This document shows positions 21,815 to 45,142 of a DNA stretch of 64,000 nucleotides, in pieces. Both the position numbers and the translations under genes were made by a program. The stretch's first letter is position 1, and every line of letters begins with the position of its first letter. The notes under the pieces are model-generated. The model was given only the letters and a program-made list of their open reading frames with translations. It was not told the DNA's origin and made no database searches. This DNA is from Rhodothermia bacterium (GTDB lineage: Bacteria; Bacteroidota; Rhodothermia; Balneolales; Balneolaceae), in contig JAUICM010000009.1 in the NCBI GenBank assembly GCA_030427885.1, positions 62,001 through 126,000 on the forward strand. The letters run 5' to 3'.

Positions 21815-23179
21815 CTATTCAAATAGTTTAGTATGAATGCTTCTGGCCACATCCAGCATCTTATCCTGATCCACTACAATGCTCAGGATGCGTTTTTCTT
21901 TGGTGAAAGTGATCATGTCAATATCGGTGTCTTTAACAGAATTGAATATTTTGCTTGTCAGATCATCGATATTTGAAAGTGAGCATCCGATAAGACTCAC
22001 CAGGCCCTTTTTGCGCTCCAGCTTAACAGTTCCAACTTCAATTAAATTCTTTGAAAGGACATCGAGCTTTTCGGAATCAGTGAGTGATATAGTTACGGAA
22101 GCTTCGGTGGTGTTCACTGCATCAACCGGAAGCCGTTGATTTTCGAGCTCCTCAAATACATTGGTCAAAAAGGAATAACCCATTACCGTTTCATAAGCAC
22201 TCACGGTAACCAAAGCAGCATTGTCCTTAAACGACATGGCCAGAATATCTTTATTCAATTCCGACTCACGAACAATCTTTGTCCCCGAAGCCTCGGGATC
22301 AAAAATATTCTTTACCAATACAGGGATATTCCGTTCCTGAGCTGGTTTAAGAGTGGAAGGGTGGAGCACCTTTGCTCCGTAAAATGCCATTTCTGTTGCA
22401 TCAAAATAGCTAAGCTCTGCGATAGGTTTTGCATCATCGATAAATCGGGGATCGCTGGTATAAATTCCACTCACATCCGTCCATATCTCAATAGTGTTCG
22501 AATTCAATGCACCTCCGATAAGGCTTGCGGTATAGTCGGAGCCTTCAAAGCCCAGGGTAGTGGTTGTGCCATCAGGTGCCTCCCCATAAAAACCGCCAAT
22601 AATCGGGGTGAAGCCGCTTTCGAGCACAGTTTCAAGAGAACCGCAGCGTTGGTTGATCAGCATTCTGTTTGGGTTGGCATGACCGTATTCAGCATCGGTT
22701 TTAATGATCTTTTTTGCATCGATGTACTGAGTGAGCAAATTCACAGCCAATCCACATTGAGCAAGGAGATAAGAGGATATCTGCTCTCCAATACTGGCGA
22801 TTGCGTCTTTCATTTTATCTGAAAGTTCAGCTTGTTCTTTCGTATACAAGAGAAGCTTTTTCAGCAGCCCGACCTTTTCGGAAAGTTTTTTCTCACAACT
22901 TTCACGAATCAGTTCATTTTTAGCATGTGGATTTTCAGTTAGAAAATCATTGATGATGGTAAGATGACGATCCTGAATGCTGTCTGCAATTTCGGTAGCC
23001 TTATCCAAATCTCCTGAAGCTGCGAGTTTTGCAGATTCGATCAACTGGCGTGTAGTTCGGGCTGTAGCCGATACAATTACAACCGGAGCTTCATACCCTC
23101 TGATGATCTCCAGGACCTGTTTCCAGGTCTTGTGATCATTCATTGAAGTTCCGCCAAATTTAAGTACGTTAATATCCAT
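21815..23179 (-). CDS. lysC: Aspartate kinase (lysine-sensitive type, monofunctional)
   Basis: 454 residues. It phosphorylates aspartate at the entry to the lysine/DAP, threonine and methionine pathway. VLKFGGTSMND opens the kinase domain, EGSDYTASLIGGAL and TDVSGIYTSDPR are conserved, and two ACT domains follow (about 300-454). There is no homoserine dehydrogenase fusion. It lies downstream of lysA on the same strand with a strong hairpin between them. Feedback inhibition by lysine is expected of the family but not shown here. Confidence 0.93.
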   Translation of the reverse strand: MDINVLKFGGTSMNDHKTWKQVLEIIRGYEAPVVIVSATARTTRQLIESAKLAASGDLDKATEIADSIQDRHLTIINDFLTENPHAKNELIRESCEKKLSEKVGLLKKLLLYTKEQAELSDKMKDAIASIGEQISSYLLAQCGLAVNLLTQYIDAKKIIKTDAEYGHANPNRMLINQRCGSLETVLESGFTPIIGGFYGEAPDGTTTTLGFEGSDYTASLIGGALNSNTIEIWTDVSGIYTSDPRFIDDAKPIAELSYFDATEMAFYGAKVLHPSTLKPAQERNIPVLVKNIFDPEASGTKIVRESELNKDILAMSFKDNAALVTVSAYETVMGYSFLTNVFEELENQRLPVDAVNTTEASVTISLTDSEKLDVLSKNLIEVGTVKLERKKGLVSLIGCSLSNIDDLTSKIFNSVKDTDIDMITFTKEKRILSIVVDQDKMLDVARSIHTKLFE

Positions 23180-23200
23180 TTATCTCCTAAAAACTGGGCT

Positions 23201-23208
23201 CAAAAATA
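23201..23208 (-). promoter_or_regulatory. Possible -7 element (TATTTTTG) of lysC
   Basis: On the minus strand TATTTTTG fits TAnnTTTG, about 22 nt before the lysC ATG and downstream of the hairpin at 23273-23233. The -33 position reads TTT, not TTG. If real, lysC has its own start and a very short leader, too short for a lysine riboswitch. Confidence 0.35.
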
Positions 23209-23232
23209 CGGGGTTTGGGGAAGTATTGAAAT

Positions 23233-23273
23233 GACTATTGACCAAGGAACATGTAGTTCTTTGGTCAATAGTC
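23233..23273 (-). terminator. 41-nt near-perfect hairpin between lysA and lysC
   Basis: An 18-nt arm (23233-23250, GACTATTGACCAAGGAAC) pairs with 23256-23273 across a 5-nt loop, with a single G-T wobble. On the lysA-lysC strand it is followed by ATTTCAATACTT, a weak T-tract. It probably terminates or attenuates lysA transcription, but GACTATTGACC also resembles dispersed repeats. Confidence 0.55.
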
Positions 23274-23290
23274 TGGGGTCGATTGTCAAG

Positions 23291-24448
23291 CTAGGCTAGC
23301 TCATCAGAATAAACAGACGCGATCTGGGGCCGTAGATTATACTGGCTCTTCATCACTTCACCATAAGCTCCACAACTTCTGATTGCTACCAGATCTCCAC
23401 GGTGAAGTTCCGGGATCTCAATATCCTTTCGGAAGGTATCAGAGCTTTCACAGATAGGTCCCACCACATCGTACTTTTTTGGAGGGAGTTCACTGGTGAG
23501 TACATCAATATTATGGCTTGCCTGATAGAGAGCCGGACGGATGAGTTCAGTCATACCTGCATCAACCACAGCAAAATTTTTAGCTCTGCCACTTTTGGTG
23601 TAAAGCACTTTTGTGATCAGACTACCGGATTGACCAATGATGGATCTTCCAAGTTCAAAGTGAAGTTTTTGGTGATCTTTCAGCACGATATGTTCATCAA
23701 ACAATCCAAAGAAACTCTCAAAGTCAGGAATAGAATGTCCGTTCGGATCGGCATAATTGATCCCAAATCCCCCTCCCACATTGATCACACTAAGTTTGAA
23801 TCCCTTATCCTCAATATAGTTATTCAATTCATTGGCGCGGGAGCATAACTCGCGAAAGGGTTCCAGTTTTTCAACCTGAGACCCTATATGAAAATGGATC
23901 CCGATCAATTCGAGGTTTTCAAGTTCAGGCAGTTTATCAAGAACGTCATCAAGATCTTCTTCATTGATACCAAATTTGTTTTCATTCAAACCGGTTGTGA
24001 TATAATGATGAGTTTCAGCATTCACATTAGGATTCAGACGAAGCGCTATTCGTGCTCGTGTTCCTATTTTTGAAGCAAGTGAATTGATGACCTCAAGCTC
24101 CTGGGGAGATTCGCAGTTAAAGCAAAAAATATCTTTTTCGAGTGCAAGAAGTATCTCGTCATCACTTTTACCAACACCTGCAAAAGCGATGTCAGCCGGA
24201 GTAAAACCAGCTTCAAGAGCCCGGGTAATCTCACCCCCGCTTACACAATCAGCGCCCAGACCGTAGCTGCGAATCAACTCCAGTAATCGGGTCTGATGAT
24301 TCGCTTTTAGCGCAAAATGGATGTGATAGCCCCTGGACAGACCATGCTCCTTAACGGCTGTTAGTGTGCTTCGGAGTACATCCAGGTCATAGTAATAAAA
24401 GGGGGTCTTTAACCCTCTGAGTGAATCTATAATTTGATCAGGGAACAT
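23291..24448 (-). CDS. lysA: Diaminopimelate decarboxylase
   Basis: 385 residues, fold-type III PLP enzyme. It converts meso-diaminopimelate to lysine. Lys48 in HFALKAN is the PLP lysine; GADCVSGGEI, the HIGSQ motif, the GGGFGINY phosphate loop and CESSD (second-subunit Cys) are all present. It starts 1 nt after the stop of the antiporter gene, so the two are translated from one message. lysC follows 111 nt downstream. Confidence 0.94.
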   Translation of the reverse strand: MFPDQIIDSLRGLKTPFYYYDLDVLRSTLTAVKEHGLSRGYHIHFALKANHQTRLLELIRSYGLGADCVSGGEITRALEAGFTPADIAFAGVGKSDDEILLALEKDIFCFNCESPQELEVINSLASKIGTRARIALRLNPNVNAETHHYITTGLNENKFGINEEDLDDVLDKLPELENLELIGIHFHIGSQVEKLEPFRELCSRANELNNYIEDKGFKLSVINVGGGFGINYADPNGHSIPDFESFFGLFDEHIVLKDHQKLHFELGRSIIGQSGSLITKVLYTKSGRAKNFAVVDAGMTELIRPALYQASHNIDVLTSELPPKKYDVVGPICESSDTFRKDIEIPELHRGDLVAIRSCGAYGEVMKSQYNLRPQIASVYSDELA

Positions 24449-24449
24449 G

Positions 24450-26297
24450 TTAGTTATTCGACTCGACTGTTTCTTCGATGTTAGTTGAGGTTGGAGTGAG
24501 GTCTTTTTTATCGGAGAGAGTAAAAGCTATTACAGAGTCTCCATCCTGAGGAGTTGGAGGATTATCTGTTGCAAATGGTTCGAGTGTACCATCGGAACTT
24601 AGCATAAAAACCGGAATAGCGTCATCGCCATAAAGATTCTTATAGTCCTTAAAACTAAACTCTTCTGTGATAGGAGTAGTGGTAACATCTACATCTCTTC
24701 GTGTGAAAGATGTGATATCTTCAAAATTAATGTTTGATGAGATCAGTGTTCGTCCACCAAGAAACTCATTGGAGTCATTATTTCGCCGTTTGGAAGTAGC
24801 TGATTGAGCAAGTTGAAATACAGAAGAACTACCAAAAAATTCAGCAAAACGAATTGAAGCCAAAGCGTTAACCTCATCGTTGGGCGTTAATGCCAACAGA
24901 CGTCCAATTCCGTCCAGATCAATCTCATCCATAGCATATTCGCTAAGAATATTACCGTAGTAAGTGTTCAGGCCGGACTTACGGGCTTTCGAAATATTTT
25001 CCCAGTTCGAATCAGCAACCAAAACTTTAAATCCAAGGTCTTTAAGAACTTCAGCAATCATTCTGGACCAGCGGTGAGCACCAAGGAACAAGACACCATG
25101 AGGTTGGGGTTTTGCCACACCCAAAGCCCGGGCCAGTGGGTTTGCTGAAAGTCCGTATATGGTAACAGTAGCTATGATCACGATAAAAGTATATGGAACC
25201 AGTTGTTCGGCTACCACATAACCTTCCTGCTCCAGACGTAAAGCGAAGATAGCGGAAATGGCCGCTGCTACGATCCCTCTGGGTGCCATCCAGGCAAGAA
25301 AAGTTTTTTCCTTGAATGTGAGTTTAGATCCAATGGTAGACAGGAAAATGGATACTGGACGAACTACAAAGAACAAGGCCAGCAAAAACCAGAGGCTTTT
25401 AATGTTGAAGTAAGCCAGATGTTCGATCTTCAGTCTGGAAGCCAGCAAGATGAAGAGGGTTGAGATCAGGAGAACCTGCAGATTTTCTTTGAATTCAATG
25501 ATGTGTTTTACACGTACGCTCTTCTGGTTAGCAAGTAAAATACCCATTACAGTCACGGCAAGCAGTCCGGATTCATGCTGGAGCAGATTGGATGCTGTAA
25601 AAACTCCAATCACGATCATAAGGGTCATGGGGTTTTGAAGATAATCAGGAATCCAGTGTTTTTTAAGTGTAAAGTACATGAAACCGGCACCCAGAGCTCC
25701 AAAGAAAGTGCCGTCTACAATGGTAGTTACAATCACCATTCCGGCTTTACTGCTAATAGTATCAAAACCACCAGCTATAATGATCTCGAATACCAAAACG
25801 GCCATCATTGCTCCAATAGGGTCATTCACAATTCCTTCCCACTTCAGTACAGAGCCAGCAGTTTCGGTAGGGCGAACCTGTCTGAGTAGCGGAATGATAA
25901 CAGTAGGGCCTGTTACGATGAGAATTGCACCAAAAAGTACTGATATCTCAATTCCAAGATCCAGGAAGTAATAAGAGGCAACTGCGGCTAAAAACCAGGT
26001 CAGCGCAATACCAATGGTTATCAACTTAATAACCACACCTCCGATCTTTCGGAACTCAGACATCCGCAAACTTAATCCACCTTCAAAAAGGATAATAGCA
26101 ACAGAAAATGAGACGAAAGGACTCAATAACTCGCCCATGAGCACATCAGGATCCAGTAATCCTGTTACCGGTCCTGCAATAAGACCGAAAGCAAGAAGTA
26201 CCAGGATAGCGGGTAACTTTGTGCGCCAGGCAAGCCATTGGGCTGAAATACCTAAAGCAACTACACTGGTTAACCCAACTAGTATATCTTCATTCAT
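24450..26297 (-). CDS. CPA1-family cation/proton antiporter with TrkA-type cytosolic domains
   Basis: 615 residues. About 12 membrane segments (1-385) contain the NDPIG motif typical of CPA1/NhaP carriers, which exchange Na+ or K+ for H+. An RCK_N/TrkA-N domain follows (about 390-510, VLFLGAHRWSRMIAEVL), then an RCK_C-like end (about 540-600). RCK domains usually sense nucleotides or ions. It is divergent from the APC permease gene, which also carries an RCK_C-like domain, and is the first gene of the strand leading to lysA. Confidence 0.88.
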   Translation of the reverse strand: MNEDILVGLTSVVALGISAQWLAWRTKLPAILVLLAFGLIAGPVTGLLDPDVLMGELLSPFVSFSVAIILFEGGLSLRMSEFRKIGGVVIKLITIGIALTWFLAAVASYYFLDLGIEISVLFGAILIVTGPTVIIPLLRQVRPTETAGSVLKWEGIVNDPIGAMMAVLVFEIIIAGGFDTISSKAGMVIVTTIVDGTFFGALGAGFMYFTLKKHWIPDYLQNPMTLMIVIGVFTASNLLQHESGLLAVTVMGILLANQKSVRVKHIIEFKENLQVLLISTLFILLASRLKIEHLAYFNIKSLWFLLALFFVVRPVSIFLSTIGSKLTFKEKTFLAWMAPRGIVAAAISAIFALRLEQEGYVVAEQLVPYTFIVIIATVTIYGLSANPLARALGVAKPQPHGVLFLGAHRWSRMIAEVLKDLGFKVLVADSNWENISKARKSGLNTYYGNILSEYAMDEIDLDGIGRLLALTPNDEVNALASIRFAEFFGSSSVFQLAQSATSKRRNNDSNEFLGGRTLISSNINFEDITSFTRRDVDVTTTPITEEFSFKDYKNLYGDDAIPVFMLSSDGTLEPFATDNPPTPQDGDSVIAFTLSDKKDLTPTSTNIEETVESNN

Positions 26298-26483: not shown

Positions 26484-28592
26484 ATGGATCACAAAAAATT
26501 AGCCAAGGAGCTTGGTCTATCCGACGTATACGCTATTGCAACAGGAGCTATGTTCAGCTCAGGGTTTTTTCTGCTCCCGGGTTTAGCTGCTGCTGAAACC
26601 GGGCCGTCAGTATTTTTAGCCTATTTAGTCTCCGGACTTATAGTTCTGCCCACGATGTTTAGTGTGGCCGAACTGGCAACAGCTATGCCAAAAGCAGGCG
26701 GGACATACTATATAATCGATCGAAGCCTCGGACCGATGATAGGCACCATTGGGGGATTTGGTTCATGGGTGGCCCTGGTTCTGAAAAGTGCTTTTGCGCT
26801 GATCGGGATGGGAGCCTATATCGCGATATTTTATGACGTTCCTATTATCCCGGTTGCGGTATTTCTTACAGTTGTATTTGGAATACTAAATGTGGTCGGA
26901 GCAAAAGAAACCACACTTCTTCAGAAAATACTGGTAGCTGCACTGGTAACGATCATGTTCTTTTATATCATTCAGGGAGTATTTGCTGTGTTTCAGATGG
27001 ATGTGATAGAAGTTACCAGGAATCGATTTACTCCTTTATTCATTGATGGTTATTACGGGTTTTTTGCAACAGTAGGTATGGTTTTTGTTTCTTATGCGGG
27101 ATTAACAAAAGTGGCCAGTGTAGCTGAGGAAGTAAAAAATCCAGACCGGAATATTCCTTTGGGTATGTTCCTGGCTATTATCACGGCAGTGGTTGTGTAT
27201 GTAGTTGGTGTGTACATCATGGTGGCTATGCTCGAACCTAGTGAGTTTCGTGAAGACCTGACACCAGTCGCTACTGCCGGCGAACAGTTTCTACACTGGC
27301 TGCCGGGGTCAACTGGGATCATTTTAGTGGTAATAGCGGCAGTGGCAGCATTCGCCTCAACAGGAAATGCAGGTATCATGTCTGCTTCCAGATATCCAAT
27401 GGCAATGGCCCGGGATAAACTGATCAATGAACGATTTGCCAGGCTTGGAAAGATGGGAACTCCATTCTGGTCAGTACTTGGAACTGTGTTAATGATGGTG
27501 CTGGTATTGGTTAGCTTCAACGTTGCAGCGGTTGCAAAACTGGCAAGTGCTTTTCAACTTTTGCTTTTCGGATTGCTGAACCTCGCTGTTATTGTAATGC
27601 GCGAAAGCAGGATCAAAGAATATGACCCGGGATTCAATTCACCTTTTTATCCATGGATGCAGGTGGTGGGAATAATATTATCTATTGTATTGATCTTTGA
27701 GATGGGGGCCTTGTCTATTTTGTTTACAGTAATAGTGAGTGCTTTTGGGATCATTTGGTTCAAGTATTATGCTGAAGATAAAGTGGACCGGCAGGGGGCC
27801 ATCTTCCATGTGTATGGTCGACTTGGAGAGAATAAAGATCAGGGGCTTGAAGTTGAGATGCGGAATATCATCAAGGAAAAGGGGCTTAGGAGAGAAGATC
27901 AGTATGAAGAAATGATATCCAGAGCTGAAGTAATCGATTTTACAGATGATGTCAGTTATGAAAAGATTGTGAAAGAGGTTTCCAGGAAATTCACGGATAA
28001 ATTTAATCGTCCCGCTGATGAACTAGCCGAACTGTTTACTGATTTTGATGAAGAACATATCATTCCTATTGCAAGAGGCGTAGCACTCAATCACGCTCGT
28101 TTGGAGGGAAATGTAACACCTGAAATGGTATTGGTTCGTTTAAAGAAAGGTTTAGAATCTGCAGATATAGAACCATTGAAGAATCACAGCTCAGTTTCTG
28201 AGAAACTTCATGCAATGTTATTCTTTGTAAGTTCATCTGAGAATACAGGGCAACATTTAAGGATGCTTGCACAACTCGCTGATAAAGTGGGAGTTCAGAA
28301 TTTCATGAGCAGATGGGAGTCTGCATCGGATGAAATTGAACTGAGAGAGATCCTGCTAAGAGACGAAAGATTCATTCGTCTTGAACTGTCAAATGAGAAC
28401 GATACCAGTCAGTTTGTTGGCAAGATGATCAAGGATGTGAAACTGCCGGGGCAAAGTCTGATCACGATCATCTATCGTAAAGACGAGATCAAGATCCCGC
28501 ATGGAGTAACGGTACTCAGAGAAGGAGATGAACTCTCGATAATAGGAGATAAAGAAGATATCGATGCCCTGAGAAAGCTAGTGGAAGCCTAA
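26484..28592 (+). CDS. APC-superfamily permease fused to EIIA-like and RCK_C domains
   Basis: 702 residues. About 12 membrane segments (1-430) have the N-terminal SDVYAIATGAMFSSGFFLLPG signature of amino-acid/polyamine permeases. Residues about 500-620 resemble a PTS EIIA type-2 (fructose/nitrogen) domain: GVALNHARLEG places His537 at the phospho-acceptor position, followed by LHAMLFFVSS and HLRMLAQLADK. Residues about 630-702 are an RCK_C/TrkA-C domain (GVTVLREGDELSIIGD). The substrate is unknown. Phosphorylation by HPr, encoded about 15 kb downstream with Enzyme I, could control it (inference). Its stop codon overlaps that of convergent hisS. Confidence 0.85.
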   Translation: MDHKKLAKELGLSDVYAIATGAMFSSGFFLLPGLAAAETGPSVFLAYLVSGLIVLPTMFSVAELATAMPKAGGTYYIIDRSLGPMIGTIGGFGSWVALVLKSAFALIGMGAYIAIFYDVPIIPVAVFLTVVFGILNVVGAKETTLLQKILVAALVTIMFFYIIQGVFAVFQMDVIEVTRNRFTPLFIDGYYGFFATVGMVFVSYAGLTKVASVAEEVKNPDRNIPLGMFLAIITAVVVYVVGVYIMVAMLEPSEFREDLTPVATAGEQFLHWLPGSTGIILVVIAAVAAFASTGNAGIMSASRYPMAMARDKLINERFARLGKMGTPFWSVLGTVLMMVLVLVSFNVAAVAKLASAFQLLLFGLLNLAVIVMRESRIKEYDPGFNSPFYPWMQVVGIILSIVLIFEMGALSILFTVIVSAFGIIWFKYYAEDKVDRQGAIFHVYGRLGENKDQGLEVEMRNIIKEKGLRREDQYEEMISRAEVIDFTDDVSYEKIVKEVSRKFTDKFNRPADELAELFTDFDEEHIIPIARGVALNHARLEGNVTPEMVLVRLKKGLESADIEPLKNHSSVSEKLHAMLFFVSSSENTGQHLRMLAQLADKVGVQNFMSRWESASDEIELREILLRDERFIRLELSNENDTSQFVGKMIKDVKLPGQSLITIIYRKDEIKIPHGVTVLREGDELSIIGDKEDIDALRKLVEA

Positions 28593-43004: not shown

Positions 43005-43151
43005 ATCTTTATTTTTAAATGATGGCTCGTAATTTAAGAAAGAAAGTTTGAAAGGTTAATTCATTATCCGGATAAAATAAAACTAGTTGAAGGTCTATCA
43101 TTTTTAATGCTTTCTTAGAATATTGTTAAAATTAGAATGCTATATTCAGAG

Positions 43152-43424
43152 ATGATCAAGAAAAAAGTAACCATATTAAATAGTTCAGGTTTACATGCCA
43201 GGCCTTCAGCCGCACTGGTGAAGCTTGCAGGGCAGTTTAAATCTGATTTTTATATACACATGTACGGTTACCGGGTAAATGGTAAAAGTATATTAGGTGT
43301 AATGACCCTTGCAGCTGAGCAGGGAGCGGAACTTGTATTTGAGGTAAATGGGTCGGATGAGAAAGAAGCATTGAACGCAATTCTTGAGCTTGTTGAGAAC
43401 AAGTTTGGAATGGAAGATGAATAA
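43152..43424 (+). CDS. ptsH: Phosphocarrier protein HPr
   Basis: 90 residues from ATG 43152. With this start the phospho-accepting histidine falls at His15 (GLHARPSA) and the regulatory serine at Ser46 (NGKSILGV), the canonical HPr numbering, which decides it against the upstream ATG at 43137. HPr relays phosphate from Enzyme I. Ser46 with its context suggests HPr kinase control. ptsI starts 6 nt later. No sugar-specific EIIB or EIIC is in the window. Confidence 0.93.
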   Translation: MIKKKVTILNSSGLHARPSAALVKLAGQFKSDFYIHMYGYRVNGKSILGVMTLAAEQGAELVFEVNGSDEKEALNAILELVENKFGMEDE

Positions 43425-43429
43425 GCATC

Positions 43430-45142
43430 ATGAGCAATCCGAAACCCGGAGAGAAAGTAATAAAGGGATTAACCGGTAGCGAAGGTATCGCTATTGGTCC
43501 GGTGCTTGTTGTTGATGAGAAACGGAAAAGGATACAGCCCAGAAAGATAAAAGCGGATGCAATCTATGTTCATCTTCAAAGGTTTGCCAAAGCAAAGGCA
43601 GCCTTTCTGAAAGAACTGGATGAGCTTACTTTAAATCTGGATAAGAAAACAGCCGAGATCCTTGAAACTCAAAAGCATATTATCTCTGATCGAGAGATAG
43701 AAAAAAAGATCAACTCCGTGATCGAGGTAGAGTTGTATGATGTTGAGTATGCGATCTACGGAACTTTCAATGAATTTATAGAGCGCTTAAGAGAAAGCGG
43801 ATCTGAATTATTTCAGCAGCGTATTGTTGATCTCGAGAATCTGAGGGATCGTCTCATTCTTCTTGCCTGCGACAATGATAGAGAACTCGAAATTGAAAAA
43901 GGTACGATCCTGGTACTTCAGGACATCAGTCCAACGGATCTGGTTACCTACCATGAGAAAGGAATAAAAGGCCTTGTAATGGATAAAGGTGGTGTTACCT
44001 CACATGCCGCCATCATTGCTCAATCTCTGAACATCCCTTGTATAGTAAGTACAAAAGTAGGGGTAAGACACGCATCCAATTCCCGTAAAGCGGTACTTGA
44101 TGCCAGTTCCGGGGAGTTGATCTTAAACCCGTCCAGAGCCGTACTTACGGAGTTCAAGAAAAAAATAAGGGATCTCAATAAAGCGCAGAAAGCATTCATA
44201 AAGGCTGGTGAGAGATCAGAAACCAAAGATGGATTTCCATTTCACCTGAGAGCAAACATTGAATTTCAGCAGGAACTTATCCTGGCAAATGAATTCAAAG
44301 CAGAAGGTATCGGGCTTTTGCGAACAGAAGCATTGTTATTTGGCGGGATGTCAAAAAGAAGCGAGATCGAACAGGATAAATACTACGATTCTATTTTATC
44401 GGGTATGTCCGGGCCGGTAACAATTCGCCTTTTTGACGTTGGAGGAGATAAACTGCATTCTCAGACTCCGGATGAAAATAATCCCTTTCTGGGGTGGAGG
44501 GGAGTGAGAATGTTACTGGATGAAAAAGCAATGTTGATCAGCCAGTTCAGATCGATCCTCAGATGTGCAGGTAAATATCCGGGGCGAATCAGGATACTTG
44601 TACCTATGGTGGCACTGGTGGAGGAGGTAGTACAGGTAAGGAAAGTAATGGAGGAAGTACAAAAGGCACTGATGGATGCCGGTATTCCCATTGATGAGTC
44701 GGTACCTTTAGGAATAATGGTGGAAGTACCAAGTGTAGCTTTGCTGGCCGATAAATTCGCCAAAGAGGTCGATTTCTTTAGTATTGGCACGAATGATCTT
44801 ACACAATATGCTCTGGCTGTGGATCGGGGGAACGAAAGGATCTGCAGTTTATATCAGCAACATCACCCATCGGTTTGGCAGCTTATTAAGGCCACCGTAA
44901 AAGCTGCCAATGAAAATGCAGTGCCTGTAAGTGTTTGCGGTGAGCTGGCAGGGAATAAACTGGGAGCACTATGTTTGCTTGGAATGGGAGTTAATGATCT
45001 GAGTATTTCACCGGCTTCTATTCCAAAGGTCAAGGAAGTACTAACATCCCGTTCTATGCTCGAGCTGAGAGATTTTTCGGAAAAAGTTCTGGATTGCTCT
45101 ACTACCGAACAGGTTCATGAAGTATATGGAAGCTGGGACTAG
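43430..45142 (+). CDS. ptsI: PTS Enzyme I (PEP-protein phosphotransferase)
   Basis: 570 residues, full length. The phospho-His is His192 in GGVTSHAAI. The PEP-binding barrel shows LLRTEALLFG, RLFDVGGDK, GWRGVRMLLD and the FFSIGTNDLTQY block with catalytic Cys in VSVCGELAG. It phosphorylates HPr from PEP. It is in a two-gene operon with ptsH; with no EIIC nearby, regulation of other proteins is a plausible role. Confidence 0.95.
   Translation: MSNPKPGEKVIKGLTGSEGIAIGPVLVVDEKRKRIQPRKIKADAIYVHLQRFAKAKAAFLKELDELTLNLDKKTAEILETQKHIISDREIEKKINSVIEVELYDVEYAIYGTFNEFIERLRESGSELFQQRIVDLENLRDRLILLACDNDRELEIEKGTILVLQDISPTDLVTYHEKGIKGLVMDKGGVTSHAAIIAQSLNIPCIVSTKVGVRHASNSRKAVLDASSGELILNPSRAVLTEFKKKIRDLNKAQKAFIKAGERSETKDGFPFHLRANIEFQQELILANEFKAEGIGLLRTEALLFGGMSKRSEIEQDKYYDSILSGMSGPVTIRLFDVGGDKLHSQTPDENNPFLGWRGVRMLLDEKAMLISQFRSILRCAGKYPGRIRILVPMVALVEEVVQVRKVMEEVQKALMDAGIPIDESVPLGIMVEVPSVALLADKFAKEVDFFSIGTNDLTQYALAVDRGNERICSLYQQHHPSVWQLIKATVKAANENAVPVSVCGELAGNKLGALCLLGMGVNDLSISPASIPKVKEVLTSRSMLELRDFSEKVLDCSTTEQVHEVYGSWD

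Follow-up and report, generated by a model that had tools for sequence, protein, structure and literature searches.

An amino acid permease from a Balneolaceae genome carries a C-terminal tail made of a PtsN fold and an RCK_C domain. We consider it fairly probable that this tail is a gate acting in cis on the carrier, whose likely pair-mate is a YcgO-like antiporter of a family that bears the module elsewhere. The gene lies on the plus strand at positions 26484 to 28592 of the window, the 64-kb stretch of DNA that was analyzed as a whole, and ORF analysis gives a single intact frame that begins with ATG and encodes 702 amino acids. From the domains and folds observed, their recurrence, their sharing with the antiporter, and the adjacency of the two genes, we infer gating and whatever is said below of its direction, phosphorylation, nucleotide input, and substrate.

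The fusion begins with an APC transport domain (residues ~10 to 429; positions 26511 to 27770), which matched AA_permease_2 (PF13520) at residues 10 to 405 with 140 bits against a cutoff of 27 (E = 1e-40) and which agrees with that family in fold, being CAT/GkApcT-like (Foldseek 5oqt, TMt 0.84). Against TIGR00909, amino acid transporter (2A0306), the permease scored 159.5 bits, below the curated cutoff of 556.8. A linker (residues 440 to 479; 27801 to 27920), helical at low confidence in predicted structures, leads to an EIIA type-2, PtsN-like domain (residues 482 to 625; 27927 to 28358), which scored 41 bits against a cutoff of 27 for PTS_EIIA_2 (E = 2e-10), and the chain ends with RCK_C, or TrkA_C (residues 641 to 699; 28404 to 28580), at 46 bits against a cutoff of 27. 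The sole EIIA family found in the fusion at Pfam E values up to 1 was PF00359, and the EIIA-Glc class domain (PF00358) was absent at that threshold. Thus, the permease, EIIA-like, and RCK_C domains of the original prediction all exceed Pfam cutoffs in one reading frame, the EIIA type-2 layout that it placed at about residues 500 to 620 falls within the Pfam match, and the His537 that it read within GVALNHA stands at that position in the translation (codon at 28092 to 28094). A chance match or a frame artifact was excluded by 44 distinct full-length homologs that align end to end. The hisS gene is convergent with the permease gene, and the two overlap by 4 bases at 28589 to 28592.

The folds agree with the profiles. 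An AlphaFold model of the module, built from an 84-row alignment (pLDDT 84), superposed on EIIA-Ntr 2a0j with a VIA Z score of 18.2 and an rmsd of 2.2 over 145 residues, and EIIA-Ntr structures were also its closest Foldseek relatives (1a6j, E = 1e-8). Moreover, a profile of 26 module sequences matched Burkholderia PtsN (4gqx; E = 2e-10) and placed His537 on the active histidine. The RCK_C part of the model superposed on the c-di-AMP-bound RCK_C domain of SaCpaA (5f29, TMt 0.83) and also on 3jxo. The profile searches and structure prediction that had been proposed as a check thus recovered both folds (Pfam, Foldseek, and VIA). The orientation of the module relative to the membrane domain is unreliable in AlphaFold, and the linker has a pLDDT below 50.

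The architecture recurs. Seven named relatives (Balneolaceae, Balneola or Gracilimonas) are 72 to 81% identical to the window protein, and 198 genomes of the phylum hold many full-length homologs, some in tandem, with identity down to ~43%. Within the class, 153 of 244 genomes were matched by the module profile (E = 1e-12), and in 128 the match was strong (E = 1e-60 or better). A published description of the fusion was not found in titles and the starts of abstracts, in a search that covered few subscription journals. Carriers with a fused EIIA are known. The LacS lactose permease is a secondary carrier with a C-terminal fused IIA-Glc-like domain that is phosphorylated by HPr~P; it shares with the present protein the fusion of an EIIA to a secondary carrier, but it belongs to a different carrier family, its EIIA is of the Glc class, and it has no RCK_C.

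The module is shared with the antiporter family. Divergent from the permease gene is a cation/H+ antiporter gene (24450 to 26297, minus strand; 615 amino acids), the product of which matched Na_H_Exchanger and TrkA_N (RCK_N) in Pfam, with neither an RCK_C nor an EIIA domain recognized. The prediction that this antiporter has RCK domains therefore holds for RCK_N but not for RCK_C. It scored 143.8 bits (E = 6e-42) against NCBIfam PRK05326, the YcgO model, for which the cutoff is 309, and the transmembrane domain of Escherichia coli CvrA/YcgO matched it with an E value of 3e-25; judged by sequence, it is a relative of the YcgO K+/H+ antiporter and not an equivalog. The RCK_C domain of CvrA/YcgO in turn matched that of the permease (E = 3e-9, 34%). 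At five loci (L041 to L045), the module forms the end of an antiporter-family protein, and the two of these that were scanned have Na_H_Exchanger and TrkA_N ahead of it. At two others (L098 and L099), genes for an antiporter-module and an APC-module protein are immediate neighbors, and at one more (L106), the module ends another frame beside an APC-module gene, the remainder of that frame being cut by the contig end. The window antiporter aligned with the L098 and L099 antiporters at 46 to 50% over ~580 residues and ends before the module, so that control of the pair through a module on each is ruled out in this genome. Related antiporters elsewhere carry the module, which makes the link to the antiporter stronger than the window alone shows.

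Gene order also varies around the fusion. A cation/H+ antiporter, of one of two types, neighbors it at many loci, and an antiporter of the CPA2 type precedes the APC gene at four of them, in full at L006 and L009 and by weak match at L007 and L129. In the two full cases (L006, 3662 to 5830; L009, 3701 to 5866), it is directly upstream of the fusion and replaces the YcgO-like antiporter; in L009, the antiporter also has two Usp stretches (Pfam). Two loci (L005 and L017) have no antiporter beside the fusion within the stretch examined, and lysA is present in both. In the window, a lysA-like gene (23291 to 24448, minus strand) lies directly downstream of the antiporter gene, and in neighborhood comparison several relatives also have lysA close to the fusion. 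The row on the minus strand of the window (21815 to 26297), divergent from the permease, comprises the antiporter gene, the lysA-like gene, and an aspartokinase-like gene. Rfam found two tRNAs only across the window and no lysine riboswitch upstream.

The closest functional parallel acts in trans. The PtsN of E. coli, when unphosphorylated, is described as binding and inhibiting YcgO, whereas phosphorylated PtsN binds less, and the CorC domain of YcgO is the proposed site of contact (PMC11808508). Both systems join a PtsN-type protein, an RCK_C domain, and a cation/H+ antiporter in one regulatory unit, with transmembrane and RCK_C domains that are homologous by sequence. The E. coli protein differs in acting in trans through the proposed CorC contact, whereas here the PtsN fold is in cis and is borne by an amino acid permease as well. 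The contact in the fusions cannot be identical to that of PtsN with YcgO, as the fusions lack the CorC domain. That a PtsN fold has become fused to the YcgO-like antiporter family is an independent evolutionary hint of the PtsN-YcgO partnership, and the permease has the fold in common with it.

Whether the tail is switched by phosphate depends in part on the phosphotransferase system (PTS) of the host. A single HPr and a single EI N-domain occur in the genome (4.15 Mb in 13 contigs, 98.7% complete), both in the window and on the plus strand (ptsH, 43137 to 43424; ptsI, 43430 to 45142; Pfam), together with one further EIIA_2, a free PtsN-like protein of 156 amino acids on a separate contig. PTS_EIIC (PF02378) and EIIA-man (PF03610), the two EII families that were searched for genome-wide, had no match. 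The original prediction had noted HPr and EI with no sugar EII companion in the window, and for PF02378 the absence extends to the whole genome. One HPr, one EI, a free PtsN, and no match to either EII family point to a PTS that is likely, or at least plausibly, regulatory only. Within the window HPr, we take GLHARP to be the histidine motif and VNGKSILGVM to be a Ser46-like motif, such that control by HPr kinase is possible. A passage in a 2008 survey has the PTS absent from Bacteroidetes (PMC2405797), whereas an EI N-domain was found here in 146 of 198 genomes of the phylum, which we take to be Bacteroidota as GTDB defines it.

In principle, His537 could take phosphate from HPr~P and switch the permease, and the regulatory PTS would then control a carrier directly. 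His537 and His591 align with both histidines of PtsN from E. coli and of the host's own PtsN, and His537 is invariant in all 8 rows of the closest alignment, the window protein included. A PTS without an EIIC match is present in the genome. Furthermore, ptsI lies 12.6 to 22.8 kb from the fusion in 22 genomes, hand-picked for having both on one contig, but this linkage may be plain synteny. An association of the module as such with EI counts toward the cis-acting gate: EI was found in 124 of the 128 strong-module genomes of the class against 88 of the 116 others (Fisher P = 7e-7, a value inflated by shared ancestry); three of the four exceptions are incomplete genomes (62 to 87%), and the fourth (G058) is 99% complete and also lacks HPr.

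Wider sampling weakened the case for phosphorylation. Of 124 modules, 6 RCK_C-only or short rows were set aside, and 3 of the remaining 118 had no transporter assignment; His537 is present in 94 of the 115 assigned copies and in 65 of the 85 on APC permeases, the other 20 of which have Tyr, Phe, or Gln. Conservation of the residue, which the prediction had put forward as a check, thus held among the closest relatives but not across the APC fusions, and the idea that His537 is universally conserved was discarded. Non-His residues arose on at least two branches of a tree that has five changes between His and non-His, one of them an artifact, and that still includes three spurious rows. The replacements occur where EI is present; for example, four EI-bearing genomes (G065, G171, G046, and G143) each have a Tyr, Phe, or Gln copy as their sole module match. 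Moreover, an arginine 16 residues upstream of the active histidine occurs in both PtsN proteins compared (E. coli and the host's own) yet in none of the 85 APC fusions; the window protein has F521 in its place, and it has N536 where PtsN has proline, a change from Pro to Asn seen across the window clade. Outside Balneolaceae, the canonical Pro-His is mostly kept.

Loss of the PTS does not remove the histidine either. In one family (f10), 8 of 9 antiporter-EIIA fusions retain His, whereas HPr was absent from 14 of 15 genomes tested and broken in the fifteenth (G307), and the only EI among the matches listed was a 181-amino-acid frame with a stop, again in G307; three further genomes (G308 to G310) are absent among the EI matches listed. 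This retention is weak evidence, as 17 to 29% of sites are equally or more conserved and several of the genomes are congeners. A tracking of the PTS by His537 fails in both directions. In G307, HPr lies in two pieces with stops, adjoining the EI fragment with its stop (contig C9, 16711 to 17369), as in a decaying PTS operon. Taken together, the replacements in EI-bearing genomes, the histidine kept where EI and HPr are gone, and the missing arginine count against direct phosphocontrol, the central claim of the original prediction; control of the permease through phospho-His537 is not established by these comparisons, and we regard phosphate switching as possible but lean against it. Phosphorylation is more credible in a set of antiporter-type fusions (L078, L079, L082, L083, L084, and L093, two of which have no transporter assignment), than in the window protein, since these keep the PtsN arginine, the proline, and both histidines. 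One of the set, L083, encodes in Pfam a CPA2/KefB-YbaL-like antiporter with TrkA_N and an EIIA domain.

Alternatively, the EIIA fold may be a scaffold or ligand gate that is never phosphorylated, as in the SLC4 carriers of animals, with a patch of His591 and Arg593 sensing together with RCK_C. In VIA, the module matched the cytosolic domains of BTR1 (Z = 15.0) and AE/band 3 (Z = 12 to 13). The EIIA-fold likeness of SLC4 cytosolic domains was already reported (PMC4664831). Band 3, AE2, and BTR1 are likewise solute carriers with a cytosolic domain of EIIA fold, but the domain is N-terminal, the carriers are eukaryotic and of another fold, and RCK_C is absent. Among 84 nonredundant modules, Arg593 is present in all 84 and His591 in 80 (residues 591 to 593, His-Leu-Arg; 28254 to 28262), against 67 for His537, and the module persists both after loss of His537 and after loss of the PTS. 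However, His537 still ranks 16th in conservation among 148 domain sites, its Pro-His context largely survives outside the Balneolaceae, the ligand is only putative, and antiporter copies keep Arg593 less strictly (24 of 30). We hold a purely nonphosphorylated gate to be possible but less likely than not, on a par with phosphate switching.

The RCK_C domain offers a third possibility, in which it would serve as a receptor for c-di-AMP, with the EIIA-like part as a spacer. The superposition on 5f29 is matched at the sequence level by an alignment with SaCpaA RCK_C through the IPHG/VPHG stretch, a diadenylate cyclase (DAC) domain was found in 22 of 22 genomes tested, and binding of c-di-AMP by RCK_C domains is established (PMC10243994). 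In SaCpaA and KtrA/TrkA, too, the cytosolic portion of a cation transporter includes an RCK_C fold, with c-di-AMP as the ligand in CpaA; here the fold is instead on an APC permease and behind an EIIA-like domain. A mere spacer seems rather improbable, as EIIA residues are strongly conserved and some antiporter fusions have EIIA without a detected RCK_C within the sequence stretch examined. The resemblance to the c-di-AMP-binding domain of CpaA, together with the DAC domain, nevertheless makes a nucleotide signal common to permease and antiporter plausible.

We therefore return to the cis-acting gate. In relatives, the module is found on both members of what is likely a physiological pair, the permease and the YcgO-like (K+/H+ type) antiporter encoded next to it, and it is probably a tethered counterpart of free PtsN in its action on E. 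coli YcgO. Depending on its state, the EIIA-fold pocket would shift the seating of RCK_C on the membrane domain and thereby raise or lower flux. Where histidine and PTS exist, that state could be set by HPr phosphorylation, such that some module members are perhaps phosphorylated; in members without the histidine or without the PTS, it would be set by ligand or packing alone. RCK_C would add a nucleotide input, for example c-di-AMP, and permease and antiporter may be switched together. The cis fusions unite EIIA and transporter in one polypeptide, on which the influence of the former can be measured, and they bear on PtsN control of potassium transporters. Moreover, copies with the histidine, copies without it, and copies from genomes without a PTS offer natural controls for whether a carrier-borne EIIA fold needs phosphorylation, and the presence of the fold on human SLC4 exchangers widens the relevance.

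What the permease carries can be approached through GkApcT, which, with the CAT family of SLC7, is the closest solved transporter fold and for which the relevant residues are named in PMC5803215. Its Glu115, Asp237, and Lys191 are not kept and correspond in a HMMER alignment to Ala97, Thr208, and Leu154 of the window permease, and in place of Ala119 there is Lys101, which is conserved without exception (35 of 35). A lysine or other cationic substrate, which adjacency to lysA and CAT likeness might suggest, found no support, given the loss of the GkApcT residues near the arginine guanidinium. An acidic substrate is a guess from Lys101. Glutamate is the usual counterion of K+, and it is conceivable, if somewhat unlikely, that the module couples K+ to organic-osmolyte flux across an antiporter and a permease of different superfamilies, the latter possibly with an acidic substrate such as glutamate, and that its control has moved away from phosphorylation by the PTS toward the sensing of a ligand or nucleotide, as seen in the series from Pro-His through Asn-His to Tyr, Phe, or Gln.

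Other arrangements were met along the way. Of the matches on haloarchaeal plasmids (~40% identity), the two that were scanned carry Usp domains where the fusion has EIIA and were set aside as a different architecture; a third haloarchaeal region has no annotated gene beneath the match. At L129, three APC-EIIA-RCK_C genes lie within ~10 kb of a single genome (190 to 9897).
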